Shown piece by piece: positions 5,988-49,012 of a DNA stretch of 64,000 bases; positions within the stretch are counted from its first letter, which is position 1; each line of letters begins with the position of its first letter. The notes below the pieces were generated by a model. It was not told the DNA's origin and ran no database searches. It saw only the letters and a program-made list of their open reading frames with translations. Source of the DNA: Kribbella albertanoniae (GTDB lineage Bacteria; Actinomycetota; Actinomycetes; Propionibacteriales; Kribbellaceae); the NCBI RefSeq assembly GCF_004348455.1, contig NZ_SMKA01000012.1, positions 1 to 64,000 of the forward strand, written 5' to 3'. The translations under genes were made by a program, and so were the position numbers.

Positions 5988-6515
5988 CTAGTCGAAAAGA
6001 CTGGGTTCCGGGTCAGGCTGAACCGGAGCCGGCCGGAATCTCGCACCCGGTTGGACCACCGCGCTTCCGATCGCCTCCTCCAGCCCTTCGACCGCGAGCC
6101 GATCGGCGCGCTCGTTCTCCGGATGCCCGGCGTGCCCCTTCACCCAGAACCACTCGACGTCGTGTCGCGCGTTCGCCCGCTCCAGCCGCTGCCACAGATC
6201 GGCGTTCTTGACCGGCAACTTCGCCGACGTCCGCCACCCGTTCAGCTTCCACCTCGGCAGCCACTGGGTGATGCCGTTCCGCACGTACGTGCTGTCGGTA
6301 TGAACCTTCACCACTTCGCCATCCCGGGTCAGGCCCTCCAGCGCCATGATCGGAGCCATCAACTCCATCCGGTTGTTGGTGGTCTCCCCCGGCTCTCCGC
6401 CGTACAACTCCTTCTCGTGCTCCCCGTACCGCAGCACCACGCCCCACCCACCAGGCCCCGGATTGGGACTGCAGGCCCCGTCGGTGAAGATCTCAACAAG
6501 CCGCTTGTCAGTCAC
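5988..6515 (-). CDS. rnhA: Ribonuclease HI
   Basis: A cytoplasmic enzyme that degrades RNA in RNA-DNA hybrids (R-loops, lagging-strand primers). The 175-residue protein has all four metal-binding carboxylates: D12 (FTDGAC), E51 (NRMELM), D74 (VHTDSTYV) and D138 (NERADRL). The active-site loop [11 protein letters not shown] contains the conserved His (about H128/H131). The start is a GTG at 6515. The protein is about 20 residues longer than E. coli RNase HI because of a proline-rich C-terminal tail. It converges on recD with a 14-base gap, so readthrough from either side is possible. This is a standalone housekeeping gene. Confidence 0.95.
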
Positions 6516-6681
6516 CGCCGAACCCTATCGCCGGGGATCGAGGTAGTGCGTGCCGACCGGCACGCGCACGGCTGTTGTCGATACGCGCAGGATCGCGGGG
6601 GCGTTCGTGGACGCGACGGTGCCGGACCGTGTTCCTTGGCAGGGAGGACTCAGATCTTCCTTCGTCGCCGTGGAGGCCGTC

Positions 6682-9600: not shown

Positions 9601-10071
9601 AGCTTCACGGTGGCCGCCTGGGTGAAGCCGTCCGCGGTCGGCAAGAACGAAGTCGTGATCAGCCAGGACGGCTCGCAGGTCAGCGGTTTCCGCCTGGGAT
9701 ACGTCTGGGACGACCTGTACGGCGGCTATCGCTGGTCGGTGGCGATGCCGGTCGCGGACTCAGTGTCTGCGGAGGTACACACGGCGGTCGGCCCGTTCGA
9801 CGAGCCAGTTGCCGGTCAGTGGACGCACGTCGCGGGAGTGTACGACGCGAAGGACCAGACGCTGCGGCTGTACGTCGGCGGCCAGTTCGTGGCCGAGACC
9901 TATCACCGCAGTGCGTGGAACGCGGCCGGCGCGGCACGCTTCGGAGCGGGCTGGACGTCGGCGGCCGGCCTCCGTGACTTCTTCACCGGCGCCATAGACG
10001 ACGTACAGATGCATTCCGGTGTGCTCACGGATCAGCAGATCGCCGACCTCTACTTGCCTTCCCAACTGTGA
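6682..10071 (+). CDS. Secreted DNRLRE/LamG-domain protein preceding an Rhs protein
   Basis: A 1,129-residue exported protein. The ATG at 6682 has a nearby GGAGG-like site (about 6671). It opens a basic n-region, a hydrophobic core and a likely cleavage after ...TPAASA near residue 56. Residues about 310-475 resemble the DNRLRE domain of WapA-like wall proteins (paired Trp/Tyr strands, 'SFFQFDTSGV', 'SATTWKNQPTW'). A fibronectin-like stretch follows, then two LamG/concanavalin-like jelly-roll domains from about 700 and 914 (VADWGLDE..., HWLMDESSG...; both with LNGTTGY/V and ...RLYVNG/GG). No enzyme signature is seen. It lies 52 bases upstream of the Rhs gene in the same direction. It probably acts at the cell surface with that protein, for example in wall or glycan attachment; this is inference. 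Confidence 0.8.
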   Translation: MPTLSHRCRVAGAGRSRRRSRLPKVAWGVAMSCVLAFLGGCLVVVTSTPAASATVSDEASTVLGEAQAQNVAARTRRQVEVGTLTTETGQVFANPDGSFTRHESALPVRVHGSSGWVPVNMTLRARADGTVAPIAGPLDLAFSGGGEMPLVQLRQDGRELAVGWPGKLPQPVLSGETATYREVFPGVDLVLTASTAGLSQILVVKNAAAAANPALGSLPYRLTTKGLVVRSTAAGLTATDPAGEVVFSGPAPYMWDSSGRGSAVQPGGRVTAVGARVAGDQLSLVPDRALLNAKTTRFPVYIDPSWSGVKQAWTQVWSNYPTTSFYNGANLGTSEKVARVGYDSTDKKRTRSFFQFDTSGVKYKHILKATLQTASNWSWSCTVREVQVWATNPISSATTWKNQPTWAYQMEKKSFAKGFSSSSCPAGGVEFNVTSQITNAAANGWSNVTQGLRTSTTAETNNDTYSWKKFANNPSITIDYNTIPDSPANLTTEGSASCVTGPDRLVVSTVTPTLRATLHDVDNSVQAHFEWWTADGTAPAGEYVSPVVAGATPTVVATSVPSGAFGNGVVGKWRVRAEDGIDVSAWSPWCEFAVDDAAPEAPTAVSSGFPDNGSGDAVMGTSLPVTFGANGESDVVKYEYTLNGTSTALNLTATPSQPGAEAAISVVPDRYVNWLHVRSVDAGGNRSAVVTAVFYAAPAPGPVADWGLDETGDGTVAVDSAPGRHSATLAGGASWGDGRQGGALTLNGTTGYAATTASVVNTSNSLSVSGWVRLTDISHNAVVATQVGSQAGAFTLSYSSSSRRWIFQRTSADVASPTYTKAISTTVPAADGRWVHLTGVYDAPSAQIRLYVNGVLEATTAYTTPWSAAGSFQIGRSKVNGVYGEYWPGDLDQLQVHNRVLLPGEIQQVARRDGHWLMDESSGTTAGDTAGAHPASWSASGASRVAGKTGNAVQLNGTTGVLTASGPAVRTDGSFTVAAWVKPSAVGKNEVVISQDGSQVSGFRLGYVWDDLYGGYRWSVAMPVADSVSAEVHTAVGPFDEPVAGQWTHVAGVYDAKDQTLRLYVGGQFVAETYHRSAWNAAGAARFGAGWTSAAGLRDFFTGAIDDVQMHSGVLTDQQIADLYLPSQL

Positions 10072-33117: not shown

Positions 33118-33276
33118 CTAGGTGGTCACGTGGGCCACGCCTGGTCTGCCGTTCTCGACGTGGATGCTGGCCTGGGTCTTCACCGGGGCGCCGGGGGCGT
33201 TGACGAACGGGACGACGCGGTAGTCGGTGCGCATCTCGTCGCGGCCGAGGTGGCAGACCTGGTAGCCGCGCTGGGC
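33118..33276 (-). pseudogene. Orphan C-terminal gene fragment
   Basis: About 50 codons on the minus strand (RGYQVCHLGRDEMRTDYR, VVPFVNAPGAPVKTQASIHV, ending PGVAHVTT and TAG at 33118) read like genuine protein, with GC-rich third positions. Upstream the same frame turns into noise inside the histidine-kinase gene, so no full gene exists. It overlaps the last ~30 codons of the kinase in another frame. The likely origin is a deletion that fused the end of a lost gene to the end of the kinase gene. The family is not recognised. Confidence 0.45.
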
Positions 33277-34790
33277 GTTGTGGGGCCTGTGCCTGGCTGG
33301 GCCTCGTGGGGAGCCATGGGGCAGAGTGGGAGGGTGGCGAGGACTCGGCCGCCCGTGGGGGTGTGGCCTGCGGTGCAGTGGCCGCCTATTTCGGCGGCTC
33401 GCTCGGTCATTGACAGGAGGCCGACGCCGGGCAGCCACTCGGCCGGCTCGCCGTTGTCGGTCACTTCGATGGACAACTCATCGCCTATCGCCAGATGTAC
33501 CTCGATCAGGTTCGCGCCCGAGTGCTTCACGGCGTTGTTCAGCGCCTCCACCACGATCCGGTACGCCGCGACCTCTACCGCCGCCGGGAGGTCAGCCCAG
33601 CCCACGCTCGTCTCCACCCGGACCGTGACGGGCTCTCCACCGGCACGATGCGCGAACCGACCGGCAACGGCCCGTACGGCGTCTCCCAGGCCGAGCTCGT
33701 CCAGGGCGGGCGGCCGCAGGCCCTCCACGGCGGCCCGGATCTCCGTGATGGCCAGGCCGATGTCACCCCGGAGTCTGCCGAGCATCTCGGCCTGCCGCCC
33801 GTCGCTCGAGTGGTTGCGCAGCGCGTCGGTTGTGTAGGCCATGCCGGTCAGCCTCGGCCCGAGGTTGTCGTGCAGGTCTCGGCGGAGGCGGCGGCGTTCT
33901 TCCTCGCGGGCCGCCACGATCCGCTCCCGCGAGGCCTGTAGCTCCTCGGAGGCCAGCGTGGCCCGGACCGCTACCCCGAGCGGCACTTCCAGCATCGACA
34001 GCAGCCGGCGCCTCCTGCGGCCAAGCCGCCCAGTGGTGACGAACTGGACCGCTCCGAGCTCAACGACCTCCAACTGCCCGGTCGCAGAGCCCGAGACGGC
34101 CAGATCCCGCCCTTCCATCCGCAGCGCCACGAACGGCAGCTGGAGTGCGTCCCGAACAGCCCTGACCAGTACGTCGAGCGATCCCTGCTCCAGGTCCAAG
34201 GCCGGGACCTTGACCCTGAAGGCCCGATCAAGCAGTGGTTGGAACAGCCAATGCGCCGGAATCACCAGCAGCGCGACCACACTGGGCACCGCAGACAGGA
34301 CCACTCCCGCACACAGGTAGAACGTTGCCTGAGACGCAACCACCCGTACGTCGACAAGGCGGTACCGGAGCAACGCCAGCGCCACGGCAGGCGGTACTGC
34401 CAGCCACGCGGACAACCCGAGCAGCACCAGCGGGACAGCCAGCACGGCGGCTAGGTACAGCCATAGGATCTGTCGGCGGACTACCTCGTCTCCGCAGCGG
34501 TATCGCGTCACAAGCGCAGCCACGGCGGCTAGTACCGCTAGTAGCGACGTCAACCCGGGATCGGCGTACAGGAGGCTTGCCAGCAGGACCGCAGCTGCCG
34601 CTGTTGGGACGCGGAGCGATCTGGTGGTCGGGAAGACCAAGAGGGCAGCGGCGAGCACGGCGTTGGTGGCCGAGGGCAACAGAATTGCTGTCAGAGCCGC
34701 GGACAGGAACAGCCAGCCCAGGGGGTTGCGCGGGCGCCGAACGGCGAGGGTGCCGCCGCACAGCAGCAGGCAGACCCCCAGCGAGATCAT
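33180..34790 (-). CDS. NarL-type sensor histidine kinase
   Basis: A 536-residue membrane sensor kinase partnered with the response regulator that precedes it. Several hydrophobic helices (about residues 1-170, including RRPRNPLGWLFLSAAL) form a membrane sensor. The HisKA_3 phospho-acceptor motif EEERRRLRRDLHDNLGPRL has its His near residue 307, and the HATPase domain follows (VVEALNNAVKHSGANLIEV, IEVTDNGEP). The natural C-terminus should be near GGRVLATLPL. The last ~45 residues are Ser/Thr/Ala-rich and overlap an unrelated gene fragment, so the true 3' end was probably lost. The start ATG at 34790 overlaps the regulator stop (ATGA). The N-terminal sensor looks shorter than usual for this family. 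Confidence 0.85.
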   Translation of the reverse strand: MISLGVCLLLCGGTLAVRRPRNPLGWLFLSAALTAILLPSATNAVLAAALLVFPTTRSLRVPTAAAAVLLASLLYADPGLTSLLAVLAAVAALVTRYRCGDEVVRRQILWLYLAAVLAVPLVLLGLSAWLAVPPAVALALLRYRLVDVRVVASQATFYLCAGVVLSAVPSVVALLVIPAHWLFQPLLDRAFRVKVPALDLEQGSLDVLVRAVRDALQLPFVALRMEGRDLAVSGSATGQLEVVELGAVQFVTTGRLGRRRRRLLSMLEVPLGVAVRATLASEELQASRERIVAAREEERRRLRRDLHDNLGPRLTGMAYTTDALRNHSSDGRQAEMLGRLRGDIGLAITEIRAAVEGLRPPALDELGLGDAVRAVAGRFAHRAGGEPVTVRVETSVGWADLPAAVEVAAYRIVVEALNNAVKHSGANLIEVHLAIGDELSIEVTDNGEPAEWLPGVGLLSMTERAAEIGGHCTAGHTPTGGRVLATLPLCPMAPHEAQPGTGPTTPSAATRSATSAATRCAPTTASSRSSTPPAPR

Positions 34791-35437
34791 CTGAGCGGAC
34801 CTGCCGCACGCCCCAGTCCAACGGCCCGGGCACACTCGATCGCCGCGGCCCGGTCAGCGATCCGCAGCTTCGCGAAGATGTTGGAGATGTTGTTGCTGAC
34901 GGTCTTCGGCGCCAGGTGTAGCTGCCGGGCGATCTGGATATTGCTCAGGCCGGCGGCGATGAGATCGAGTACGTCGCGTTCGCGGCCGGTCAGATCGGGA
35001 AACGCCTCGGCCGGTGGTGGGCCGGCCAGCAGCTCCATCACCTTGCCCGCCACCCGCCGGCCGAAGAAGGCCGCTCCGGTCGCGACGCCGTGAACCGCCT
35101 GGATGATGTCCTCCTGCGGCCCGCCCTTCAGCAGGTAACCGCGGGCGCCGGCCCGGACCGCGGCGAGCACCGAGTCGTCCTCCTCGAACATCGACAGCAC
35201 CACGACCGCGATGGCCGGATCGGCCGCGACGATCTCCTGAGTGGCGGAGATACCGTTCAGCCCGGGCATCTGGAGGTCCATCAGGACCACGTCGGGGCGG
35301 TACCGCAGCGCCTTCTGCACGGCCTCGTCACCGGTGGCGGCCTCGGCCACGATGTCCATCCCGCCGACCGACAGCAGCAGATCGCGCAGGCCGTTGCGGA
35401 CGATCGGGTGATCGTCGGCGATGACCAGCCTGGTCAA
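34787..35437 (-). CDS. NarL/LuxR-type response regulator
   Basis: A 216-residue two-component regulator. The receiver domain starts immediately (RLVIADDHPIVRNGLRDLL) with acidic D8/D9, phospho-acceptor D54 (VVLMDLQMPG) and the Lys of YLLKGG. The LuxR helix-turn-helix occupies about 145-205 (LTGRERDVLDLIAAGLSNIQIARQLHLAPKTVSNNISNIFAKL). No ATG or GTG fits. The start is a TTG at 35437 that overlaps the upstream SnoaL-like stop as TTGA. It is followed by its kinase with an ATGA overlap. Its position just downstream of the lanthipeptide transporter genes suggests it may control that locus; this is inferred. Confidence 0.85.
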   Translation of the reverse strand: MTRLVIADDHPIVRNGLRDLLLSVGGMDIVAEAATGDEAVQKALRYRPDVVLMDLQMPGLNGISATQEIVAADPAIAVVVLSMFEEDDSVLAAVRAGARGYLLKGGPQEDIIQAVHGVATGAAFFGRRVAGKVMELLAGPPPAEAFPDLTGRERDVLDLIAAGLSNIQIARQLHLAPKTVSNNISNIFAKLRIADRAAAIECARAVGLGRAAGPLR

Positions 35438-35808
35438 GACGCCGCAGCGAGCCGGTCGAACGGCCCGTCGGTGCCGCCGACGCACTGCCGGGAGGCGATC
35501 CGGCCGTCGCGGCCCTCGTAGATGTGCATCTGCTCGACGGCCAGCCGGCGGCCCCCGGTGATGCCGCTGAGCCGGACCCGCAGCGCCACCGTGGTGCCTT
35601 CGGCCACCAGGCCGAGCACGTCCCAGCGGAATTCGGCGACGTCCCGCCGAACCAGCGCGAGCCGCGCCGCGAACCGATCCGGCCCACAGCACCGCCCCGC
35701 GTCGGCGAAGTCAGGCGTCAGGACCGCCTCGATCCCGCGCCGATCACCGGCATTACAGGCCGCACAAAGCCTCAGAACAAGTTCCTTGTACCCCGCCGTG
35801 ACCGTCAT
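35434..35808 (-). CDS. SnoaL-like (NTF2-fold) protein
   Basis: A 124-residue small alpha+beta barrel protein. Recognisable family features are KELVLRLCAACNAGDRRGIEAVLTPDFAD, FAARLALVRRDVAEFRWDVLGLVAEGTTVALRVRLSG and the C-terminal MHIYEGRDGRIASR. SnoaL-like proteins include polyketide cyclases, but most genomic copies are small-molecule binders or isomerases of unknown substrate. The ATG at 35808 has a GGAAG-type site upstream. Translation is coupled to the response regulator through TTGA, so the three genes (SnoaL-like, regulator, kinase) form one unit and this protein may act as a ligand-sensing accessory. That role is inference. Confidence 0.75.
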   Translation of the reverse strand: MTVTAGYKELVLRLCAACNAGDRRGIEAVLTPDFADAGRCCGPDRFAARLALVRRDVAEFRWDVLGLVAEGTTVALRVRLSGITGGRRLAVEQMHIYEGRDGRIASRQCVGGTDGPFDRLAAAS

Positions 35809-35876
35809 CTTTAGATCTTCCGTCCACTGCCCTGCCCCGATGAGGTCCGATCGGGCACCACCGGAGGAAGCGACAG

Positions 35877-37508
35877 TCACCCCGTTGGACCACCCACCAC
35901 CAGGACCCGCTGGGCCCGGGCCGCTGAAGCAGCCCGATGGGCGACCACCACAAGCGTGCTGCCGCTGGCCGCGAAGGCCTGTTCGGCCCTGGCCTCGGCG
36001 GCCGGATCGAGGTGGCAGGTCGCCTCGTCGAGCAGCACCACCAGCGCCTGCACCAGGTACACCCGGGCCAGCGCGATGAGCTGGGCCTCCCCCGCCGACA
36101 GGCCGTCGCCGTGGGGTGCGAGGAGACCCGCGTAACCGCCCAGGCGCCGTACGACGGGTTCGAGCGCCAGGGCCGTGACCGCCCGGTCGAGGTCCCGATC
36201 GGTGGCGCACGGCGCGAGGTAGGCGAGGTTCTCCCGCAGAGTGCCCGCGAAGAGGTAGGCCTGCTGCGGTACGAGCACGACCTGCCGGTGGAGTTCCACC
36301 GGATCGATCGAAGCCAACGGCACCCCGCCGATCAGGATGTCCCCGGCCTGTGGGCTGATCAGGCCACCGATCAGGTTGACCAGGGTCGACTTGCCCGCTC
36401 CGGACGGCCCGACGACGGCCACATGCTCACCGGCTGAGATATCGAAGTCCAGGTCGTCGACGGTCGGGGTGCTCAGCCGCCCGTAGCCGAAGGAGAGCCC
36501 GCGCAGCCGGACACTGCCATCCGCGGGCCTGCGCCGATCCCCCGCTCGTAGCTCTGGGCCCCGTGGCGCGCAGCTCCTGGCCAGGTGGCCGGCAGTCACG
36601 GTCAGCTGCAGCAGCCACGACCCGGTCATCTGCGCGAGCGACTGCAGCGCAGGCTGCAAGGTGCTGACGAGGTAGACGAAGGCACCGGTGACTTCACCGG
36701 TCGTGGCACGTCCGGCGAGCAGCCACGGAGCCGCTGCCAGCACGGCGACGATCGGAAGATAGCCGCCCGCGGTGATCACCAGGGTCCGCAGCGCGCCCGA
36801 CCGGCCAAGACGTCTCAGCTGGACGGCGTGGCCGTCGACGGCGATACCGGTCCTCGCTTTGGCCTCGGCCTCCGCTCCGGCCGCGGTCACCTCGCGAAGG
36901 CCGTCGAGCAGCCTGCCGCTGGTCCCCGCGAGGACCTCCCCGGCGCCGATCGCCGACCGCTGGCGAGCCGCCGTCCGGGGGAAGAGTGCACAGTAGGCGG
37001 CGACCGTCAGCACCAGCGGTACGGCGACCACCACCAGGATGTCGAGGTCAACTCCGGCGAGACCGATCAGTGCCGCGATCAGTGACAACGCGGCCGGGCG
37101 GAGATTGCGCAGGACCGTCGCCGTCAGCGTCCGGACCGTCTCGACCTGGTCGACGACGCGGTTCACGGCAACCGAGTCCGACTGATGTGCCGGCTGATCG
37201 ACCCGGGAGAGGTGACTCCGCACCACCAACCGGGTCAGGTCGTCTCGCAGCGGCTCGACGAGATCTGCCAGCGGACCGTAGGTCTGCCGCGTCGCGAGCA
37301 CGCCGGCAAGCTGTGCCAAGGCGTACAGACCGAGCCAAGCCAGGCCAGTCACCGGCCGCCCGGCCAGGAAGCCCCGGTCGAGCGCTTGCGCAACCAACAG
37401 ACCGGCAGTCAGCGCAGGCACCGCCTCAACCAACGACCAAACAGCCAGTACGGCGACTGCACTCGGCCGGTCGTGCAGGGATCCGCCCAGCAGCCGCAGG
37501 CCGCTCAT
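35877..37508 (-). CDS. ABC half-exporter (canonical ATPase site) of the lanthipeptide locus
   Basis: A 543-residue transmembrane-plus-ATPase protein. Six membrane helices (about 1-300) precede an ATPase domain with Walker A GPSGAGKST (near residue 365), Q-loop VPQQAYLF, a slightly altered signature LSAGEAQ, Walker B VVLLDEAT with the catalytic Glu, and H-loop VVAHR. It overlaps the preceding half-transporter by four bases (ATGA), so the two almost certainly form a heterodimeric exporter. The partner has a degenerate catalytic site. From the neighbours the likely cargo is the modified lanthipeptide or its leader-bearing form. A weak 6-bp stem lies in the 68-base gap after it, before the SnoaL-like gene. 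Confidence 0.85.
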   Translation of the reverse strand: MSGLRLLGGSLHDRPSAVAVLAVWSLVEAVPALTAGLLVAQALDRGFLAGRPVTGLAWLGLYALAQLAGVLATRQTYGPLADLVEPLRDDLTRLVVRSHLSRVDQPAHQSDSVAVNRVVDQVETVRTLTATVLRNLRPAALSLIAALIGLAGVDLDILVVVAVPLVLTVAAYCALFPRTAARQRSAIGAGEVLAGTSGRLLDGLREVTAAGAEAEAKARTGIAVDGHAVQLRRLGRSGALRTLVITAGGYLPIVAVLAAAPWLLAGRATTGEVTGAFVYLVSTLQPALQSLAQMTGSWLLQLTVTAGHLARSCAPRGPELRAGDRRRPADGSVRLRGLSFGYGRLSTPTVDDLDFDISAGEHVAVVGPSGAGKSTLVNLIGGLISPQAGDILIGGVPLASIDPVELHRQVVLVPQQAYLFAGTLRENLAYLAPCATDRDLDRAVTALALEPVVRRLGGYAGLLAPHGDGLSAGEAQLIALARVYLVQALVVLLDEATCHLDPAAEARAEQAFAASGSTLVVVAHRAASAARAQRVLVVGGPTG

Positions 37509-39223
37509 GACGTCGCCTGCGGGTCCGGTTGGAAGAGGGCCCGGTACCGGCGGTCGGTCAGCAATTGCTGGTGTGGGGCGAGCCCTTGGAGCCGTCCGGC
37601 GGAGATCCAGGCAACAAGATCCGCAGAGGCGGCAGTGTCCTCGCGGTGTGCCACCACCACGGTTGTGCGGCCCAACTGGATCCTGGCCAGTGCAGCGACG
37701 ATCAAGGCCTCGGTCGCGCTGTCCAGACCGGCCATGGCGTCGTCGAGCACGACCACCCGTGCGTTCCGGGCAACCAGGGCGGCCAGGCCAATCCGCTGGA
37801 CCTCCCCTCCTGACAGCGGCACATCCGCGATCCGCGTGTCGTATCCCTCAGGCAAGCGCCGGACGAAAGCGTCCGCTTGGGCAACCCGGGCCGCTTGCTC
37901 CACCTCTGCGCGCGTCACCCCCGGCAGGCCGAAGGCAATGGTGTCGTGCACGGTCTCGCCGAGCAGGGCGGGCTTCTCGAAGGCGTAGGCGACCTCACGG
38001 GCCAAGTCGTGCCGGGGCAGCTCCCGTAGCGGCAAATCGTCCAATAGGACTTCTCCTTCGTCCGGTACGGCCAGACCGCCGATCAGCCAGGCAAGCGTGG
38101 TCTTGCCCGCGCCGGACGGGCCGACGACCGCAAGCGTCGTACCGGCAGGGATGACGAGGTTGATGTCGTCCAGGACCGTCCCTAATCGCACGCCTCGGAG
38201 TTCCACCCGGCCGTCGGCCACGCCCAGACGCCGTACAGGCTTCGGTCTGGATGACAAGGCCAGGACGTCGGCGAGACGGGCCGCACTGGCGCGGGCAGAG
38301 CCGACAGTAGCCAGCAGACCCACCTGCGACAGGACGCCGAGCGCCAGCGGCGTGTAGGCGACCGTAGCCAGCAACTGGCCCGGCGTTATCCGGCCGGAGG
38401 ACACACCCACTCCGGCAACGGCCAGCACTGCTACCTGGATCAGCCGAACCAGGAGTGCCACCTGCCAGCCCGCACGCCCCTGCGCCGACCACCAAGCCCG
38501 GCCTGTCGAATCGAGCTCCGCCAACGGGCGAAGTACCCGCTCGGCCTCGCGATCCGCCGTGCCACTGGCTTGGATCGTGCGGATCCCGGCCAGTGCGTCG
38601 AGCAGCAGGCCGGCGATCAGGCTCTGGGCGTTGCGATAGCGGGCGGTCAAGACCGTGGTGCCGGCCAGAAAGGTCCGCGCCGCCAGCGCAACTGTGGGAA
38701 CCCCGACGCCGAAGATCAGCACCAGCCGCCAGTCGATCAGCGCGAGCGCGACGACGGCGGCGACCCCGACCAGACCGTCGGTGACTCCGGACCAAACAGT
38801 CGGGAGCAGACGGCCGACCGCCGTACAGTCCGTGGTCAGCCGACTGACCAGGTCCGCGCTCGGAGGCAGCTCCCGCGCCTGCACGCCGAGGTCGACCGCT
38901 TGCCCGAACAAGCGGTGCCGCAGCTCGGCCGTGACCTGGGTGTACCAGTTGTTGCCGAGCAGGAGCACGCCGATCAGCAGGCCGATGTCCAGGGCGATCG
39001 CGGCGAGCAACCAGAGCCAGGAACCGGTCCGCTCCCGGAGGATGTCGTCGACGGCCGTCGCCAGGATCGCCGGTACGGCGAACGAGGCCGCGCCGCCGAG
39101 CAAGGTGACCGTAGCCGTCGCCACCGCGCGGGCCGGGCTCTGCCGGAAGGTTGCCAGCAGCAACCGATCGCCTGCGATCAACACCAGCCTCCAGCCGCGG
39201 TGACGGGTGGGGGCTGCCGGCAA
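37505..39223 (-). CDS. ABC half-exporter (degenerate ATPase site) of the lanthipeptide locus
   Basis: A 572-residue six-helix-plus-ATPase half-transporter. Walker A is GPSGAGKTT. The Q-loop position reads YAFEKPALLGE (Glu instead of Gln). The signature is a good LSGGEVQR. Walker B reads VVVLDDAMAGLD, where Asp replaces the catalytic Glu. Heterodimeric exporters commonly have one such non-catalytic site, and the partner encoded immediately downstream is canonical. The start is uncertain: TTG at 39223 is in frame with a purine-rich site that is rather close, and a GTG (VLIAGDRLL) lies about 13 codons in. It begins 24 bases after the second precursor gene, so precursors and exporter are probably cotranscribed. 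Confidence 0.85.
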   Translation of the reverse strand: MPAAPTRHRGWRLVLIAGDRLLLATFRQSPARAVATATVTLLGGAASFAVPAILATAVDDILRERTGSWLWLLAAIALDIGLLIGVLLLGNNWYTQVTAELRHRLFGQAVDLGVQARELPPSADLVSRLTTDCTAVGRLLPTVWSGVTDGLVGVAAVVALALIDWRLVLIFGVGVPTVALAARTFLAGTTVLTARYRNAQSLIAGLLLDALAGIRTIQASGTADREAERVLRPLAELDSTGRAWWSAQGRAGWQVALLVRLIQVAVLAVAGVGVSSGRITPGQLLATVAYTPLALGVLSQVGLLATVGSARASAARLADVLALSSRPKPVRRLGVADGRVELRGVRLGTVLDDINLVIPAGTTLAVVGPSGAGKTTLAWLIGGLAVPDEGEVLLDDLPLRELPRHDLAREVAYAFEKPALLGETVHDTIAFGLPGVTRAEVEQAARVAQADAFVRRLPEGYDTRIADVPLSGGEVQRIGLAALVARNARVVVLDDAMAGLDSATEALIVAALARIQLGRTTVVVAHREDTAASADLVAWISAGRLQGLAPHQQLLTDRRYRALFQPDPQATS

Positions 39224-39247
39224 CCCCCACCCATCAGTTCGTTCGAC

Positions 39248-39406
39248 CTAGTTGTCGGTGATCCTGCTGCAGCAGCACGTCGGCCCGTCGATGCTGCAGC
39301 GCATCGCACCGGCGCCGAGCATGGCCGTACCATCGGCGGCCGGGGCCACCTCGGGCAGCTTCTGCAGGGCGGAGATGTCGAGGGTGAGGTTCAGTGTGTT
39401 GTTCAT
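39248..39406 (-). CDS. Lanthipeptide precursor peptide 1 (52 aa)
   Basis: A small gene read directly from the sequence. The leader contains LNLTLDISALQKLPEVAP and the core GTAMLGAGAMRCSIDG is followed by PTCCCSRITDN. The leader motif L-x-x-LPE is like those of class III/IV lanthipeptide precursors. The core has four Cys (C37, C44-C46) and Ser/Thr partners (T27, S38, T43, S47, T50) for (methyl)lanthionine or labionin rings. The ATG at 39406 is preceded by GAGAAAGG. It lies 12 bases after precursor 2, with which it shares leader and C-terminal motifs, and downstream of the synthetase and protease genes on the same strand. The product structure is unknown. Confidence 0.8.
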   Translation of the reverse strand: MNNTLNLTLDISALQKLPEVAPAADGTAMLGAGAMRCSIDGPTCCCSRITDN

Positions 39407-39418
39407 GGCTAGCCTTTC

Positions 39419-39595
39419 TCAGTTGTCAGTAACGCGAGTACAACAGCAGGTCGGACGTTCCGGCGTTCCCCAGCAGGTGTTCCGCCACTGCCCCGGCCCC
39501 AGCGCAGTGCCCTCAGGCACCGGCGTGACCTCGGGCAAACGGTTCAGCTGCTGGATGTCGGCACTCAGCCGTAGTCCCGGCACGATCGTGGTCAT
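39419..39595 (-). CDS. Lanthipeptide precursor peptide 2 (58 aa)
   Basis: The second precursor. The leader reads MTTIVPGLRLSADIQQLNRL then PEVTPVPEGTALG. The core is GPGQWRNTCWGTPER followed by PTCCCTRVTDN. Conserved with precursor 1 are the LQ/LN-x-LPEV-x-P motif, GTA, one Cys upstream, and PTCCC(S/T)R(I/V)TDN. The cysteines are C41 and C50-C52. The ATG at 39595 has a strong AAAGGAGGGG site. Its first 83 bases overlap, in another frame, the end of the oligopeptidase gene. The two different cores with one shared C-terminal motif suggest two related products, possibly acting together as two-component lanthipeptides do; that is speculative. Confidence 0.85.
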   Translation of the reverse strand: MTTIVPGLRLSADIQQLNRLPEVTPVPEGTALGPGQWRNTCWGTPERPTCCCTRVTDN

Positions 39596-41363
39596 CCGGG
39601 ACCCCCTCCTTTCTTGGTCGGGTTCCACCGCGCGGGTTCGCGCGGGAGTCGACGGGCCCGGCCAGGAACCGCAGTACGGCTCCGGCCGTCGGGCCGAACG
39701 GGTCGGCGAGCAGGTCGTGATCGCCACCCGGAACTTCGAGGAAGTACGGCTCGGGGCCGGAGGCTCGCAGCGTCCGGACCAGTTCCGTGGACTGTGAAAG
39801 CGGGATCATCGGGTCCCGCTGCCCGTGCGCCACCAGCAGGCGGGCCTCGATACCGGCCGCGAACCGGAGCACGTCGCGGGGTCCGAGGTCGTCGGTCACA
39901 ACGGTCCGTCCGTCGAGCTGGTCGATCAGGTCGCGGACACCGCGCCCGGCATCGACGTACAGGCGCTGCGGCGACAGGAACGGAGCCACTGCGGCACAAC
40001 GCGCCCACCGGCCAGGGGCGACACCGGCGGCCAGCAGTGCGAGGTACGCGCCATAGCTCTCGCCGAGCAGGCTCAGCTGGTTGGGGATGCCATTGGCGAT
40101 CGCCAACAGGTCAGCCAGGTCTGGCCCGCCCCAGGCGCCACGGATCGCCTCCGCATGGCTCCGGCCGTACCCGACACTGCCGCGCTGGTTCGGCGCCACT
40201 ACTGCGATCCCGGCTTCGGCCAGCCGCGCCAGGAACGGGTTGAACCCGTACCGCCAAGCAGACAAGGGGCCACCGTGCACGGCCAGTACGACGTGCTCGC
40301 AGTCCCGCCAGCGCGGGCCGCCGTACACGACCGCCTCCACGGGGCCGGTCGCACCTTCGAGCGTCTCGATGCGTGCCTGCGGGCCGGTCCCGGTAGCCAG
40401 GTTGATGGTCGCCAGGGAGGTCACAGTCGGCTCGACCGTGACGGGATGCGGCGGCAGCACCGGCGTGGACAGGACGAGCGTGAGGCCGTCCGTGCACCAG
40501 CGGGCCGCGTGTACCCGGCCCGGTGGGGTCGTGACCTCGACGGTCCGGTCGTCGTCCGTACTGAAGTTGCTCAACCGGGAGCGGACGCCGACGGTCCGGT
40601 GCATCAGGATCTGTCGGCCGTCAGGGCTGCACGCCAGCGGCTCAGCAGGCTCGCCAGACAGGTTGAGCGCCTCGGGAAAGGCCAGCGGTCCGGGTTCGTC
40701 GAGCCGCTTCCAGCCGATCCGGCGCACTCCGGTGACATTGGTGCCGACAACCACCAGGCTGTTCTTCGGGCTGGTGGCCAGGATGCTGTCGTAGCTGTCC
40801 GGCCCTGTGTTGAGCAGGGTTGACCAGCTGCCGTCACCCAGGTCGATCAAGACGAGCTCGGTGGGACCAGTGGCGACTTCACTGCGCTCGGCGATCAGGA
40901 GCTGCCCCGACGCGTCCATCCGGTGGCAAGTGGCCAGTACTCCTGGCACGCGGGCCAGCAACTCGGTCAGCGCGGGGCGCTCGTCAGTCAGTCTCCAGAC
41001 CTCCGTGTGGCCCTGGTCATGGATCAGTGCAAGGCCGCCGGTTCCAGTGGCTGTCCGGGGCCCCGCGATCAGGCGTAGTCCGGACAAAGCACTTCCGGAC
41101 TCCGTCAAGCGAGCCGAAACGACAGAGTGGTCGAACAGCCAGACAGCCGGGTCGGCCGCGGCGCTGTCGAAGACCATCGTCCGGCCGTCGTCCAACGCCA
41201 GCATCTGCGCATGCCCGACCGGTCCGAGGTCCCGATCCGCGCGCCACCCGCCGCCACTCGACCGGACCCAGGTCTCCAGGTGTTCGCCGGTACCAGCCTC
41301 GCTGCGCAGAGAGACGCCGTACCGGCCGTTCGGTGACAGGCGGAAGTCCGCACGGCTGATCAT
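39513..41363 (-). CDS. S9 prolyl-oligopeptidase-type peptidase of the lanthipeptide locus
   Basis: A 616-residue alpha/beta-hydrolase peptidase with an N-terminal beta-propeller (about 1-330) and a catalytic domain. The triad is S436 (LGESYGAYL), D517 (HGQRDPMIPL) and H549 (GGDHDLL) in the normal S9 order, with oxyanion region LAVHGGP. The ATG at 41363 overlaps the synthetase stop (ATGA). A prolyl oligopeptidase, FlaP, is known to act in leader removal of the class III lanthipeptide flavipeptin in Kribbella flavida, and both precursors here have Pro residues right after LPEV. The protein domain should end near residue 575. The last ~40 residues are low-complexity because the gene runs into the precursor gene. 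No signal peptide, so it acts in the cytoplasm. Confidence 0.85.
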   Translation of the reverse strand: MISRADFRLSPNGRYGVSLRSEAGTGEHLETWVRSSGGGWRADRDLGPVGHAQMLALDDGRTMVFDSAAADPAVWLFDHSVVSARLTESGSALSGLRLIAGPRTATGTGGLALIHDQGHTEVWRLTDERPALTELLARVPGVLATCHRMDASGQLLIAERSEVATGPTELVLIDLGDGSWSTLLNTGPDSYDSILATSPKNSLVVVGTNVTGVRRIGWKRLDEPGPLAFPEALNLSGEPAEPLACSPDGRQILMHRTVGVRSRLSNFSTDDDRTVEVTTPPGRVHAARWCTDGLTLVLSTPVLPPHPVTVEPTVTSLATINLATGTGPQARIETLEGATGPVEAVVYGGPRWRDCEHVVLAVHGGPLSAWRYGFNPFLARLAEAGIAVVAPNQRGSVGYGRSHAEAIRGAWGGPDLADLLAIANGIPNQLSLLGESYGAYLALLAAGVAPGRWARCAAVAPFLSPQRLYVDAGRGVRDLIDQLDGRTVVTDDLGPRDVLRFAAGIEARLLVAHGQRDPMIPLSQSTELVRTLRASGPEPYFLEVPGGDHDLLADPFGPTAGAVLRFLAGPVDSRANPRGGTRPRKEGVPDDHDRAGTTAECRHPAAEPFARGHAGA

Positions 41364-43957
41364 GACTCCGCCATCCAGCGCCGCGGGCCACCATGCTGAA
41401 GGCGGAGCAGGAAGGCCACCCAGCCGGACACCCCTACCGCGTAGTCGGCGCCGAAGCCGCGCATCGATTCGTCGGGAGCCAGCAGTTGCCCGTCCACCGA
41501 GGCGGCGCGGGCAGCGATCGCCTCGGCCAGCCCCTCGGCGCGGAACCGGTGCAACTCTTTCCCGGTCGCCTCCGCCAGGTCGAGCAGGAACTCGCCGGTA
41601 CCGGCCAACCCGTGGCAGACGCTGGTGCCGGCGAGCCACCTGCGTCTCCAGACGGCCTCGGCAGCGCCTTCAGCCAGTTCGAGCGTGCGCGGGTCGCCGG
41701 TCGTCCGCCAGAGCCGCACCAGAAAGGTCCCGATGCCGGCGGACCCGCTGCACCAGTAATCGAGCGGACGGGAGTCGTTGGGGCCAGAGGTCCACAAGGT
41801 GCCCTCGTCGCTCTCGAGCGCCTCCTGGTCGAACAACCGGCCCGCTTCAACCGCCAGGTCGATCCACTCGGGCTCGTCCAGACGAGTACCGGCAGCAAGC
41901 AGGTACGACGCGATACCCGCCGTACCGTGCGCGAATCCGTAGTCGGTGAGGCCGGCCAGCTTCGAGTCGAACGTGTCCGGGACCGGCCACAGCAACCGGC
42001 CGGCCTGCCGCTCGGCACGATCGGCCAGGACCTCTGCGTACTTGCGGGCGCGGGCGGCAAGGGCCGGATCGTGGGTGTGGTTCCAGAGCTCGAGAGTCGC
42101 GAATCCGGCGCCGGCCAGACCGTGGGTGACGTCTGGGTTCGGCCACTCCAGCGGCAGCCGTCCGAGCTGGGTCATCGCGTACGCCGACAGGTCGTCGTCA
42201 GCCAGCAGGCGTGCTGCCTCATGCAGCGCGACGATCGTGCCGGCCCGGCCGAAGTACAAGCCCGGCAACAGCTCGGGGCTGGGCCCGAGGCGCTCCCGGA
42301 TCCATCCCGCGGCGGCCTGCACGCCGTCGACCGCCGCCGCGTCCTCACGAAGCTCGGCCACCCACGTCAGCACGGCCATCGGCCCAGCGGCCCCGTGGTA
42401 GATGTTGCAGGGATCGCCCGAGTCGCCGTACACGCTTGGCGGCCAGAGTCGTTCGCCGGTGTTCGGGTCCAGCTTGGCGAGCAGATGGCTGACGCCGTTG
42501 TCCAGCAACCCACCCGGCCCGTACGACGCCGAGGTGTTCGCACTCGCCGCAGGAACGTGGTTGCCGGCCAGGAAGGCCCGGGCTTTCTCGAGGCCCCAAC
42601 GGTCTGCGGGATCCGGTCTGCGGAGACCCAGGATGAGCGGCAGCGCCTCGGCCGTTCGATCATCGGTCTCGGCGATCAGCGTGAGCCACGCCTCCAGCCG
42701 CTTGGCCTCCTGCGCAGGGTCGGTCCCGGGCGGAACCGCCTCGGTCAGGATCGGGTCCGCCCCCGTGCAGAGCAGGAAGAGCAGCCCGCCAAGGGCGTGG
42801 TGATCCGCAGCCGGGGTCGCCTCGTCGCGTCGCGAGATCTCGGGAGCGCCGTACCCGGGTGTCACGGCTGCCACCGACTTCGTCCCCGCCAGCGCGGCGT
42901 ACTCCAGGTCGATGATCGCGAGCGTGCCGTCCTCGCGAACCATCACGTTCAGCGGTGACAGGTCGCGCAGCACCACACCCTGGGCATGGACGGCTGCCAC
43001 CAGATCGATCAACCGGCCGGCCGTCTCGCGCCAGGGCAACGCCACCGGCTGTTCGGCCCGCCAGGCCCGCAAGGTCTTGCCGTCGATCCGTTCCTGCACG
43101 AGGAAGAGGTCGCCGTCCTGGTCGAACAAGGCGATCCGCCGAGGTGCCGGACTCTGCTCGCCCAGCTGGTCGAGCATCTCCGCCTCGTTCCGCAGCGCCG
43201 CCTGCAGGTCCCAGCCGTCCGGTCCGTCGCCGACCCCGGCCCGGGCCTGTTTGACGATCACCTCGTCACCGGTGACCTGGTCGATCGCCTCGAAGACGCC
43301 GCCCTTGTTGGCATGCCGGATCGCCCGCCGGACCACGAACCGGCCGGCCAGCAACACCCCGTCCACCTCTTCGGCCACGACCGGCTGCTCGTCGGGAAAC
43401 GGCAGCGGTGCCCACTCCGGTGGGTTGAACCAGGCATCCCGGCGGTCCTCGACCTTGCTGCCGTCCGGCGCCGTGATCACCTCGAGCAGATGACCGTCGT
43501 TGCCGAGTCGCTGCTCGCCGATGAAGGCGCCGTACCGGTAGTGCACCAGGCTGCCGGGCCGGTACGGCCGGTCGGACAGGATCGTCGGGCCGGGCAGGCC
43601 GTCGGTGGCTTGGTGCAGCTCCGCGGCGAGGCAGCGGAACTGGTCGTCGTCGACCGGGTAGATCGTGACGAACTTGCCGGCGCCACCCCGCGGGTAGTGG
43701 CCGCCGTTCAGCTCACGGACGTGCTCGGGCGAACCGGCGAACTTGAAGACGCAGCCGGCCGGGACGAGCACGTCGAGGACCCTGGTCAGCACCTCCGGCG
43801 CGGAGGCGACGGTGGCCGACACGTGCAGCTTCCAGCCCTGCGCTCGGGTCTCGACCCCGTCCGGACGCACCGTGCACCAGAAATCGGTCTCCCGGACGGA
43901 CCAGCCCGGCACGTTCGTCAGACGGGCTTCGGTGATGTCGACGAGAGGTGACGGCAT
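41360..43957 (-). CDS. Trifunctional lanthipeptide synthetase (lyase-kinase-cyclase; zinc-site LanL-like)
   Basis: An 865-residue enzyme that phosphorylates Ser/Thr of the precursor, eliminates phosphate and cyclises Cys onto the dehydro residues. Order: N-terminal lyase-like region (about 1-200), Ser/Thr kinase domain (about 205-465; K236, catalytic loop LRDLSPLN with D332/N337, D350 in IIDLEY), and LanC-like cyclase (about 485-865). The cyclase keeps the zinc ligands C736 (YWCSG) and C781-H782 (VCHG), 45 residues apart as in NisC (46), and the active-site His in FAHGTAG (H677). Class III LanKC enzymes lack these ligands and class IV LanL enzymes keep them. The ATG at 43957 begins the conserved N-terminus but has a weak ribosome site. 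It is the first gene of the lanthipeptide operon. Confidence 0.9.
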   Translation of the reverse strand: MPSPLVDITEARLTNVPGWSVRETDFWCTVRPDGVETRAQGWKLHVSATVASAPEVLTRVLDVLVPAGCVFKFAGSPEHVRELNGGHYPRGGAGKFVTIYPVDDDQFRCLAAELHQATDGLPGPTILSDRPYRPGSLVHYRYGAFIGEQRLGNDGHLLEVITAPDGSKVEDRRDAWFNPPEWAPLPFPDEQPVVAEEVDGVLLAGRFVVRRAIRHANKGGVFEAIDQVTGDEVIVKQARAGVGDGPDGWDLQAALRNEAEMLDQLGEQSPAPRRIALFDQDGDLFLVQERIDGKTLRAWRAEQPVALPWRETAGRLIDLVAAVHAQGVVLRDLSPLNVMVREDGTLAIIDLEYAALAGTKSVAAVTPGYGAPEISRRDEATPAADHHALGGLLFLLCTGADPILTEAVPPGTDPAQEAKRLEAWLTLIAETDDRTAEALPLILGLRRPDPADRWGLEKARAFLAGNHVPAASANTSASYGPGGLLDNGVSHLLAKLDPNTGERLWPPSVYGDSGDPCNIYHGAAGPMAVLTWVAELREDAAAVDGVQAAAGWIRERLGPSPELLPGLYFGRAGTIVALHEAARLLADDDLSAYAMTQLGRLPLEWPNPDVTHGLAGAGFATLELWNHTHDPALAARARKYAEVLADRAERQAGRLLWPVPDTFDSKLAGLTDYGFAHGTAGIASYLLAAGTRLDEPEWIDLAVEAGRLFDQEALESDEGTLWTSGPNDSRPLDYWCSGSAGIGTFLVRLWRTTGDPRTLELAEGAAEAVWRRRWLAGTSVCHGLAGTGEFLLDLAEATGKELHRFRAEGLAEAIAARAASVDGQLLAPDESMRGFGADYAVGVSGWVAFLLRLQHGGPRRWMAES

Positions 43958-44028: not shown

Positions 44029-44053
44029 ATCCACGGACAAGTTGTCCGTGGAT
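44029..44053. promoter_or_regulatory. 25-bp perfect palindromic operator between divergent genes
   Basis: The arms ATCCACGGACAA (44029-44040) and TTGTCCGTGGAT (44042-44053) are perfect inverted copies around one central G. The site lies in the 190-base gap between the lanthipeptide synthetase (starts 43957, minus) and the quinone-oxidoreductase-like gene (starts 44148, plus), 72 and 95 bases from their starts. It is well placed for a dimeric repressor or activator of either or both. The TTGTCC in its right half could serve as a -35 element for the plus-strand gene. The cognate regulator is unknown. Confidence 0.65.
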
Positions 44054-44147
44054 AGATGTGGCCTTCCTGCGATTTTCGGTGCGGGTGATGCTTTGACAGG
44101 TCACGCCTCCAAGGCGATGCATCAACCAAACGAAAGCGGTGGTTCGC

Positions 44148-45092
44148 ATGAAGGCAGTACGTTTCCACGAGTACGGCGACCCGAGCGTTCTGCACGTCGA
44201 AGAGGTGGATCGGCCCGTTCCCGGCGCCGGACAGATCCGGATCCGGGTGGCCGCGACGTCGTTCAATGGTGTCGAAGGCAACATTCGCGCGGGGTTCATG
44301 CAAGGACCCATCCCGGTGAAGCTTCCGCATACTCCGGGCATCGACGTGGCCGGCACGGTCGACGCGTTGGGTGCGGGCGTCGATGGCTTCGAGGTCGGCG
44401 CCGAAGTGATCGGCTTCCTGCCGATGGCAGAACCCGGTGCAGCTGCGGAGTACGCCCTTGCGCCGGCCGAAATCCTGACGCGAGCGCCGAAGAGCATTCC
44501 ACTGCCCGATGCCGCGGCCCTGCCGCTGGTAGGCCTGACTGCCTGGCAGGCCCTTTTCGACCACGCCAAACTCACGAGCGGGCAGCGCGTGCTGATCAAC
44601 GGCGCGGGCGGCGGCGTCGGCGGTTACGCCGTCCAACTGGCCAAGCGCGCCGACGCCCACGTGATCGCGGTGGTCGGTCCCCGGAGCAGTGAACAGGCCA
44701 AGGCAGACGGCGCCGACGAGATCATCGACTTCACCACGACCGAGCTGATGGACGCCGTAGCCGAACCGGTCGACGTCGTACTCAACCTCGCACCGGTCGA
44801 ACCGGCACAGCTGGCCGCGCTGGTCACTCTGATCCGCCCAGGCGGCGTACTGGTCAACACGACGGTCTGGATGCCTGCGCCCTCGGACGAGCAGCGGGAT
44901 GTGCGGGGCATCGACCTGTTCGTCAACAGCAACGCCGACCAACTGGCAGAACTCGTCGGGCTGGTCGACTCCGGCGAGCTCAACGTCGCCGTCGCGCAGC
45001 GGGTGCCGCTGGCCGAGTTGCTGACCGTCCATGCGCAGGCCGCCGCAGGCACGCTGCCCGGCAAGGTCATCATCGTCGCACCCTCCGCCTGA
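44148..45092 (+). CDS. MDR-superfamily quinone oxidoreductase-like protein
   Basis: A 314-residue NADP(H)-dependent, zinc-free medium-chain dehydrogenase/reductase. Family features are MKAVRFHEYGDPSVLHVEE at the start, HTPGIDVAGTVDALGAGV, LPLVGLTAWQALFDHAKLTSGQRVLINGAGGGVGGYAVQLAK (nucleotide motif near residue 150) and the substrate-side C-terminus VPLAELLTVHAQAAAGTLPGKVII. The ATG at 44148 is preferred to an in-frame start nine bases earlier because the family begins at MKAV. It likely reduces quinones or enones in detoxification. It is divergent from the lanthipeptide operon across a palindromic operator. An oxidase-gene remnant follows 15 bases downstream. Confidence 0.85.
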   Translation: MKAVRFHEYGDPSVLHVEEVDRPVPGAGQIRIRVAATSFNGVEGNIRAGFMQGPIPVKLPHTPGIDVAGTVDALGAGVDGFEVGAEVIGFLPMAEPGAAAEYALAPAEILTRAPKSIPLPDAAALPLVGLTAWQALFDHAKLTSGQRVLINGAGGGVGGYAVQLAKRADAHVIAVVGPRSSEQAKADGADEIIDFTTTELMDAVAEPVDVVLNLAPVEPAQLAALVTLIRPGGVLVNTTVWMPAPSDEQRDVRGIDLFVNSNADQLAELVGLVDSGELNVAVAQRVPLAELLTVHAQAAAGTLPGKVIIVAPSA

Positions 45093-48439: not shown

Positions 48440-49012
48440 ATGACCACACCGCGACCCCGCAAGCTGCGCAAGGACGCCGCTGAGAACGCCGAGCGGCTCA
48501 TCGCAGCGGCGGTCCGCGTGGGGCTGGCCGAGGGCAAGTTCGTGCCGATGGAACAGATTGCCGCTGAGGCAGGAGTCGGCGTCGGGACGCTGTACCGCCG
48601 CTACCCCAATCGGCAGGCGCTGCTCGAGGCGATGGCCGTTCGCGCCTACCGCCTGATCCTGGCGGAGGCGAAGGACGCGCTGAGCTCCGGCAGCACCGGT
48701 CACGACGCGATCAGCCGCTTCCTGCATCGCACGTTCGATCGTCGCGACGAGTTGGTGCTGCCGCTGCACGGAGCGCCGATGAGCCAAGGCACCGAGTCGG
48801 CCGAGCTACGAGCGGAGATGCACCGGACGATGACTGCCATCCTCGAGCGCGGACATCGCGACGGTTCGGTCCGTGCGGACGTCGATGCGGGCACCGTGGT
48901 GCGTTTCGGTGCGATGCTCGCCCAACCGATGTCGAACGTGGCCGACTGGCCGCGTGCGGCCGCCGAGCAGCGCGCAGTATTCCTCCGCGGCATCGCACCC
49001 ACCGACGGCTAG
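48440..49012 (+). CDS. TetR-family transcriptional regulator
   Basis: A 190-residue repressor-type regulator. The N-terminal HTH (AENAERLIAAAVRVGLAEGKFVPMEQIAAEAGVGVGTLYRRYPNRQALLEAM) is typical TetR. The C-terminal helices form the ligand domain (FDRRDELVLPLHGAPM..., AAEQRAVFLRGI). It lies ten bases after the XRE gene and 406 bases upstream of an MMPL exporter whose promoter carries a TetR-sized inverted repeat. The most likely target is that exporter, induced by the exported compound; this is inference. Confidence 0.85.
   Translation: MTTPRPRKLRKDAAENAERLIAAAVRVGLAEGKFVPMEQIAAEAGVGVGTLYRRYPNRQALLEAMAVRAYRLILAEAKDALSSGSTGHDAISRFLHRTFDRRDELVLPLHGAPMSQGTESAELRAEMHRTMTAILERGHRDGSVRADVDAGTVVRFGAMLAQPMSNVADWPRAAAEQRAVFLRGIAPTDG

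Follow-up and report, generated by a model that had tools for sequence, protein, structure and literature searches.

A probable class IV lanthipeptide operon of Kribbella albertanoniae with two paralogous precursors that share a triple-cysteine end

Introduction

In the actinomycete Kribbella albertanoniae, two small tandem genes encode peptides that end in nearly the same way, around three consecutive cysteines. They lie in the window analysed here, which is a stretch of 64,000 nucleotides at the start of contig NZ_SMKA01000012.1 (assembly GCF_004348455.1), and they raise the questions of whether they are lanthipeptide precursors, which enzyme would modify them, and what rings such a core could form. 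With a candidate leader protease of its own, the locus appears as a compact class IV operon, and the three adjacent cysteines of the core make it a test case for the control of ring choice by a LanL. By the count given in PMC9576775, two class IV lanthipeptides had been characterised before that 2022 paper, which adds two of its own.

Results and Discussion

Two paralogous precursor genes

An earlier note on this DNA, made from the sequence, had proposed two tandem precursor genes of 52 and 58 codons with ribosome sites. Both are present on the minus strand as intact genes, 12 nt apart, each with a ribosome site of the AAAGG or GGAGG type on its 5' side:

39419-39595, minus strand: precursor peptide 2, 58 aa, MTTIVPGLRLSADIQQLNRLPEVTPVPEGTALGPGQWRNTCWGTPERPTCCCTRVTDN (genome search, alignment, codon comparison)
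39248-39406, minus strand: precursor peptide 1, 52 aa, MNNTLNLTLDISALQKLPEVAPAADGTAMLGAGAMRCSIDGPTCCCSRITDN (genome search, alignment, codon comparison, leader profile)

The peptides are 55% identical in a pairwise alignment, and the leader block, the GTA and the C-terminus PTCCC(S/T)R(I/V)TDN that the note had read as shared are invariant in it (DI..L..LPEV.P, GTA.LG.G and PTCCC.R.TDN, among other columns). When one peptide is used as the query against the whole 9.7-Mb genome, the other is found at E = 6e-9 and no third copy at E <= 0.001, which argues against a chance pair. The short motif TGYTGYTGYNNNMGNNNNACN is no evidence by itself, because its reversed control is commoner in the genome (58 occurrences against 38).

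Comparison of the two genes over 51 aligned codons gives 11 identical, 17 synonymous and 23 replaced codons; the same residue stands at 28 positions, 17 of which use different codons, and the nucleotide differences at codon positions 1, 2 and 3 number 17, 17 and 32. The third-position GC of the two genes is 0.92 and 0.75. Since 17 of the 28 shared residues are differently coded and the differences follow this 17/17/32 pattern, the pair are paralogues in which the protein sequence has been preserved and the DNA has not. That the frames are there by chance, or have decayed and code for nothing, is barely credible: this would fit with the lack of a convincing peptide relative outside the own genome, but the ribosome sites and the place between the S9 and ABC genes, as in LanL relatives (see below), speak against it, and the codon-level preservation rules it out.

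Organisation of the operon

The presence of a synthetase, a protease and an exporter near the peptides, also claimed earlier, is confirmed, since the minus strand carries in one operon lanL, an S9 peptidase gene, precursor 2, precursor 1, a hairpin and two ABC exporter genes:

41360-43957, minus strand: LanL, class IV lanthionine synthetase, 865 aa from the predicted start ATG at 43957 (NCBIfam, Pfam, residue alignment)
39513-41363, minus strand: S9-family serine peptidase of the prolyl-oligopeptidase type, 616 aa (PF00326, 2.5e-19)
39201-39236, minus strand: strong RNA hairpin with two 18-nt arms, 89% complementary
37505-39223, minus strand: ABC exporter 1, permease and ATPase (ABC_membrane and ABC_tran), start codon uncertain
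35877-37508, minus strand: ABC exporter 2, ATPase domain ABC_tran by Pfam, permease part by full-length NCBIfam resemblance

The ATG of the S9 gene overlaps the lanL stop, and the two exporter genes overlap by four bases. The NCBIfam matches of ABC exporter 2 are of the CydD/MsbA type and stay below their cut-offs. The S9 frame extends 83 nt into precursor gene 2 (39513-39595) in another frame, and translational coupling is possible there. Around the hairpin, the folding energy of the 61-nt stretch 39190-39250 is -37.2 kcal/mol (z -3.85), which none of 200 shuffles equals, and Rfam gives no match in the 35-45 kb part of the window. The hairpin is probably an attenuator or an mRNA stabiliser; as a partial terminator or stabiliser it may raise the dose of precursor over exporter.

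A class IV synthetase

The note had left the synthetase as LanKC or LanL, of which the second stands and the first does not. The protein passes the class IV model NF038150 with 1014.3 bits (cut-off 650), whereas with 467.3 bits it does not reach the cut-off of 575 for the class III model NF038151. It contains the Pfam domains RamC_N (PF25816), Pkinase (PF00069) and LANC_like (PF05147), which correspond to lyase, kinase and cyclase. In an alignment of 81 LanLs, the residues C736, C781 and H782, which we take from family knowledge to be the zinc ligands, are kept in all 80 relatives; those that we assign in the same way to the lyase (K43 and H45) are kept in 79 of 80 with one gap, and those of the kinase in 80 of 80 (K236, D332, N337) or 79 of 80 (D350). 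A lyase combined with a Cys-Cys-His set is named "Type IV, L-CCH" in PMC11251773. The low NF038151 score and the retained Cys/Cys/His ligands rule out a class III cluster, and the cluster is, in all likelihood, a class IV lanthipeptide operon whose LanL processes both precursors.

A second LanL is encoded in the same genome (contig C11, locus L035) and could also act on the two peptides. At 9636-9746 of that locus lies a different short precursor candidate, MQISIELLQRLPELKPEAQAGKFPCVHPSTTCWWSY.

Recurrence of the gene order among LanL relatives

An alignment of five LanLs was scanned against 84,980 species genomes, and the best 80 of 196 relatives (loci L070-L149), which are 40-47% identical to the LanL of this locus, were compared. 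This LanL is isolated, with at most 48% identity among the relatives seen. By tblastn at E <= 1e-8, 36 of the 80 loci have an S9 homologue directly after LanL, with a query that included 92 residues before the S9 start, which overlap lanL in another frame; the other 44 have no S9 match at this threshold, and five of the 80 have less than 3 kb of sequence downstream of LanL. Homologues of exporters 1 and 2 occur in 47 and 54 of the 80 loci, respectively. In the loci with S9, this gene is mostly followed, ahead of the ABC genes, by small peptides rich in Cys, whose leaders (for example MELDINALDMLPA and FETDLAALQELPE) resemble those of the present pair.

Precursors were called, in the main list on the LanL strand, and a credible one was found in 64 of the 80 loci and none in 16 (L071, L073, L074, L081, L083, L085, L095, L098, L100, L103, L104, L107, L109, L112, L129 and L144). 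CC is common among the called precursors and CCC is absent from all of them (64 of 80 loci; 0 of the 63 candidates in the main list). The clusters of the order LanL-S9-LanA-ABC-ABC within L077-L149, from Streptosporangiaceae, Actinomadura and Kitasatospora, thus resemble the present one in gene order, in leader type and in the small Cys-rich peptides between the S9 and ABC genes, but their cores differ, none of those called has CCC, and their LanLs are at most 48% identical. Because the gene order recurs while no called precursor carries CCC, the biosynthetic system is a known one and the core is an orphan.

In a tree calculated by a quick method without bootstrap, the branch that leads to this LanL is long (0.95). 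Its nearest LanLs by tree path are two of Planobispora, which lack S9, and this join may be false according to a warning of the program. The smallest well-supported set (SH-aLRT 97) consists of this LanL, six Kitasatospora loci with S9 and the two Planobispora loci without it. Within the genus, one of 38 genomes has LanL matches at E <= 1e-100, namely the own genome, with two. Another genome of the genus (G033) has a protein that scores 577 bits on the class IV model, under the cut-off of 650, and is 33% identical to this LanL.

The two peptides might also be active only in combination, as a two-component system, instead of being two variants of one product, a reading that we consider quite unlikely, in part since we know of no two-component lanthipeptide of class IV. 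It would explain why one operon holds two paralogues with a common end and differing middles, and two-component lanthipeptides do occur in class II (PMC7268733). Several LanL loci (L077, L089 and L093), however, carry three or four similar tandem precursors, which looks like product diversification.

These three loci (12.6-13.4 kb) are class IV loci of Streptosporangiaceae, whose precursors have common leaders of the MEIDVKALDMLPAAEESSLWPC type and differing cores, and they resemble a small natural library. At L138, in Streptomyces lycii, the genes 6357-6509 and 6558-6710 encode the same peptide, which begins with MTLDLEALQELRATEESGGLADCCPLPDW, and a third precursor differs.

The leader is common with LanL precursors, the core is not

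The leaders were compared by means of a profile built from 24 LanL precursors and trimmed to 34 residues, a test that is biased towards L..LP because 16 of the 24 had been found with an L..LP filter (eight were found by eye). Peptide 1 scores 22.3 bits on this profile, and the best of its 1996 scored shuffles 10.9. Peptide 2 scores 0.5 bits, which is within the range of its 1990 shuffles (best 12.9), and its identification as a precursor therefore rests on homology to peptide 1.

The reverse test, which leans less, used a profile of peptides 1 and 2 alone against 21,408 frames of 88 LanL loci. Frames with independently called LanL precursors take eight of the 14 best ranks (1, 2, 4, 5, 7, 9, 13 and 14), from the loci L097, L037, L142, L036, L088, L035, L072 and L076, the last two of which are near copies; rank 1 (E = 0.0022) is the only one under the inclusion threshold, and the other seven have E values of 0.024 to 0.8. 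With a profile of the core only, none of the 13 listed frames from the 88 loci holds a called precursor. As the whole-peptide profile finds precursors and the core profile finds none, the leader is common with LanL precursors and the core is not.

VenA-like precursors among the LanL loci (e.g., L132) have an L.ALPE leader like that of the present peptides. The peptides do not qualify for the VenA family itself, since on the model NF038147 peptide 1 reaches 10.5 bits (residues 9-37) of the 35 required and peptide 2 gives no match.

Possible ring patterns of the core

On the C-terminal side of Pro22, peptide 1 contains five Ser/Thr and four Cys; in peptide 2, six Ser/Thr and four Cys follow Pro25. 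Four hydroxy residues are common to both (those of GTA, PT, CCC-S/T and T-DN), which equals the number of cysteines. For venezuelin, rings between Cys34 and Dhb39 and between Cys45 and Dha49, each from a Cys to a later residue, were implied by tandem MS of a mutant, as described in PMC2843593. The C-x-x-x-T ends CSRIT and CTRVT have the same spacing as the proposed Cys45-Dha49 ring and could, by analogy, be closed from Cys to the later Thr. The earlier statement that this end would force an unusual ring topology goes too far, because rings from Cys to a downstream Thr/Ser, of which CCC(S/T)RxT would need the Cys-before-Thr kind, have a proposed precedent in venezuelin (PMC2843593), and because the cysteines may also form disulfides or stay as free thiols.

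The contiguous CCC may be fully cyclised onto Thr/Ser on both sides, which would give stacked rings with neighbouring thioethers and a new type of class IV core, although we regard this as doubtful and propose it tentatively. We know of no description of such a stacked-ring CCC topology, which, with all three cysteines cyclised, would to our knowledge be a new one.

It is unlikely, on the other hand, that the adjacent cysteines are not cyclised, or not all of them, and instead remain as thiols or form disulfides and bind a metal such as copper or zinc, in a product that is a metal-binding peptide with some lanthionine bridges or one that needs free thiols. Such a role would suit the fact that no other preserved stretch of the two cores is as long as PTCCC, with the fourth Cys and some Ser/Thr changing place, and the expectation that a neighbouring Thr and Cys, as at the Thr directly before CCC, should not be able to form an ordinary ring together. 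Against it, the hydroxy residues that flank CCC are preserved together with the cysteines, the Pfam-tested neighbours (some of which have no match) include no recognised metal transporter or metalloregulator, and in venezuelin the great majority of thiols is consumed, according to PMC2843593.

Search for relatives of the triple-cysteine core

By protein search, relatives of the peptides at E <= 0.001 were found in none of 96 other genomes, that is, only in the own genome among the 97 of the set. A scan of the genome contig collection with patterns for the leader, not for the PTCCC end, gave 131 candidate stretches and no relative, and tblastn gave no peptide match on plasmids. In a sample of the order, with scoring limited to 16 candidates per genome, 23 of 391 genomes match at E <= 0.01; one of them is the own genome, and the remaining 22 lie at 18.4-22.4 bits. 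In the family of genome G376, with a limit of 21 scored candidates per genome, 15 of 297 genomes reach 19.3-23.7 bits. When 19 loci from these matches (L150-L168) were realigned, three (L152, L165 and L167) had CCC in the aligned part. The most query-like, L167 of genome G805 with CCCYSRVLD, was rejected: its frame continues past the motif and lies across other ORFs, and it is on contig C9, whereas the two good LanLs of that genome are on C13 and C23. All 19 realigned loci are taken as chance matches. In a sample of the class searched with a two-row profile (16 candidates scored per genome), two of 394 genomes match, the own one and one whose match, of 21.5 bits, falls in a frame of 466 aa.

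On both strands of all loci of at least 5 kb, seven small ORFs combine a ribosome site with CCC among their last 25 residues, and none of the seven has the leader. The best match of the core profile, in L081 (E = 0.04), was discarded since it lies inside an ABC gene in another frame.

The suggestion of a new family, to be recognised from CCC-containing small ORFs near LanL genes and from their co-occurrence with synthetase and protease in other actinomycetes, is thus not borne out: the peptides are found once, in their own genome, with 0 of 96 genomes and 0 of 131 stretches yielding a relative, and so a new, widespread family is not supported. The converse case, in which related genomes keep the locus and lack the peptides, is not what was found either; because a close LanL is lacking from the other 37 genomes of the genus as well, the absence of the peptides there does not refute the proposal. 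The note's remark that the triple-Cys end has no described lanthipeptide counterpart agrees with our survey, in which none was found in a limited open-licence literature that leaves aside the supplementary precursor lists of PMC7268733.

Proposed pathway and comparison with known systems

From the genes, their homology, the conserved residues and the operon order, we infer a pathway whose chemistry, cleavage site, ring pattern and any activity of the product are set out here conditionally, with the LanL mechanism taken from the VenL work (PMC2843593). LanL would recognise the L..LPE leader of either precursor; its kinase domain would phosphorylate Ser/Thr in the C-terminal part of the peptide, its lyase domain would eliminate the phosphate to give Dha/Dhb, and its zinc-bearing cyclase domain would add Cys thiols to these, forming up to four (methyl)lanthionines. 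The S9 protease would then cleave on the C-terminal side of a leader proline, for which LPEV(A/T)P, common to both leaders in the alignment, is the likeliest site; it perhaps prefers the modified peptide, like FlaP. For a cut after LPEV(A/T)P, the calculated [M+H]+ of peptide 1 is 2961.245 without modification and 2889.203 after four dehydrations, and that of peptide 2 is 3605.614 and 3533.572, values that trimming of the N-terminus would lower. Aminopeptidases may trim the resulting end, and the ABC pair would export the product.

The S9 peptidase is probably the leader protease. Its translation contains GESYG, GQRDP and GGDHD, which we read as the catalytic triad, and its best PDB matches are S9 enzymes of the acylaminoacyl-peptidase type. 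A prolyl oligopeptidase domain encoded in the cluster (PF00326) is also a feature of flavipeptin (FlaA/FlaP), where the clustered FlaP, a leader peptidase, cuts after Pro (PMC10885120); flavipeptin belongs to class III and the present system to class IV, and the two enzymes are likened here by domain type, not by sequence comparison. PMC10885120 reports that other products of classes III and IV depend on proteases whose genes lie elsewhere. SflA (Ren et al. 2020, cited in PMC10885120), like the product proposed here, is of class IV, but depends for its processing on an AplP-like metalloprotease whose gene lies outside the cluster, not on a clustered S9 enzyme.

A close parallel to the proposed chemistry is venezuelin (PMC2843593), which is made by a class IV LanL with lyase, kinase and zinc cyclase and has four Cys, four dehydrated Ser/Thr and a ring of Cys-x-x-x-Ser spacing, similar to C-x-x-x-T in the present peptides. 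In contrast, its core is unrelated, its cluster as described in PMC2843593 has no protease gene where an S9 gene is present here, and it derives from a single VenA instead of two precursors. LanIV of Streptomyces sp. DvalAA-43 is likewise of class IV (PMC9576775). The LanL locus of that strain in our set (L082), which may not be the refactored one, has the precursor MMEHDIDALQVLPEDVRTEDARGEEHAAALITACRWHTSGC with two separate Cys and no CCC.

Other features of the neighbourhood

Beyond the exporters, the minus strand encodes a histidine kinase (HisKA_3) and a LuxR-type response regulator (33180-35692), a possible regulator of the operon, and a SnoaL-like gene (ORF 35434-36210, minus strand) lies between the exporters and this pair. 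On the other side, a perfect, operator-like palindrome, ATCCACGGACAA-G-TTGTCCGTGGAT, is found at 44029-44053, between lanL and a divergent zinc-type dehydrogenase gene (44139-45092, plus strand), and occurs once in the window with up to three mismatches allowed. A TetR gene is located at 48440-49012 on the plus strand.
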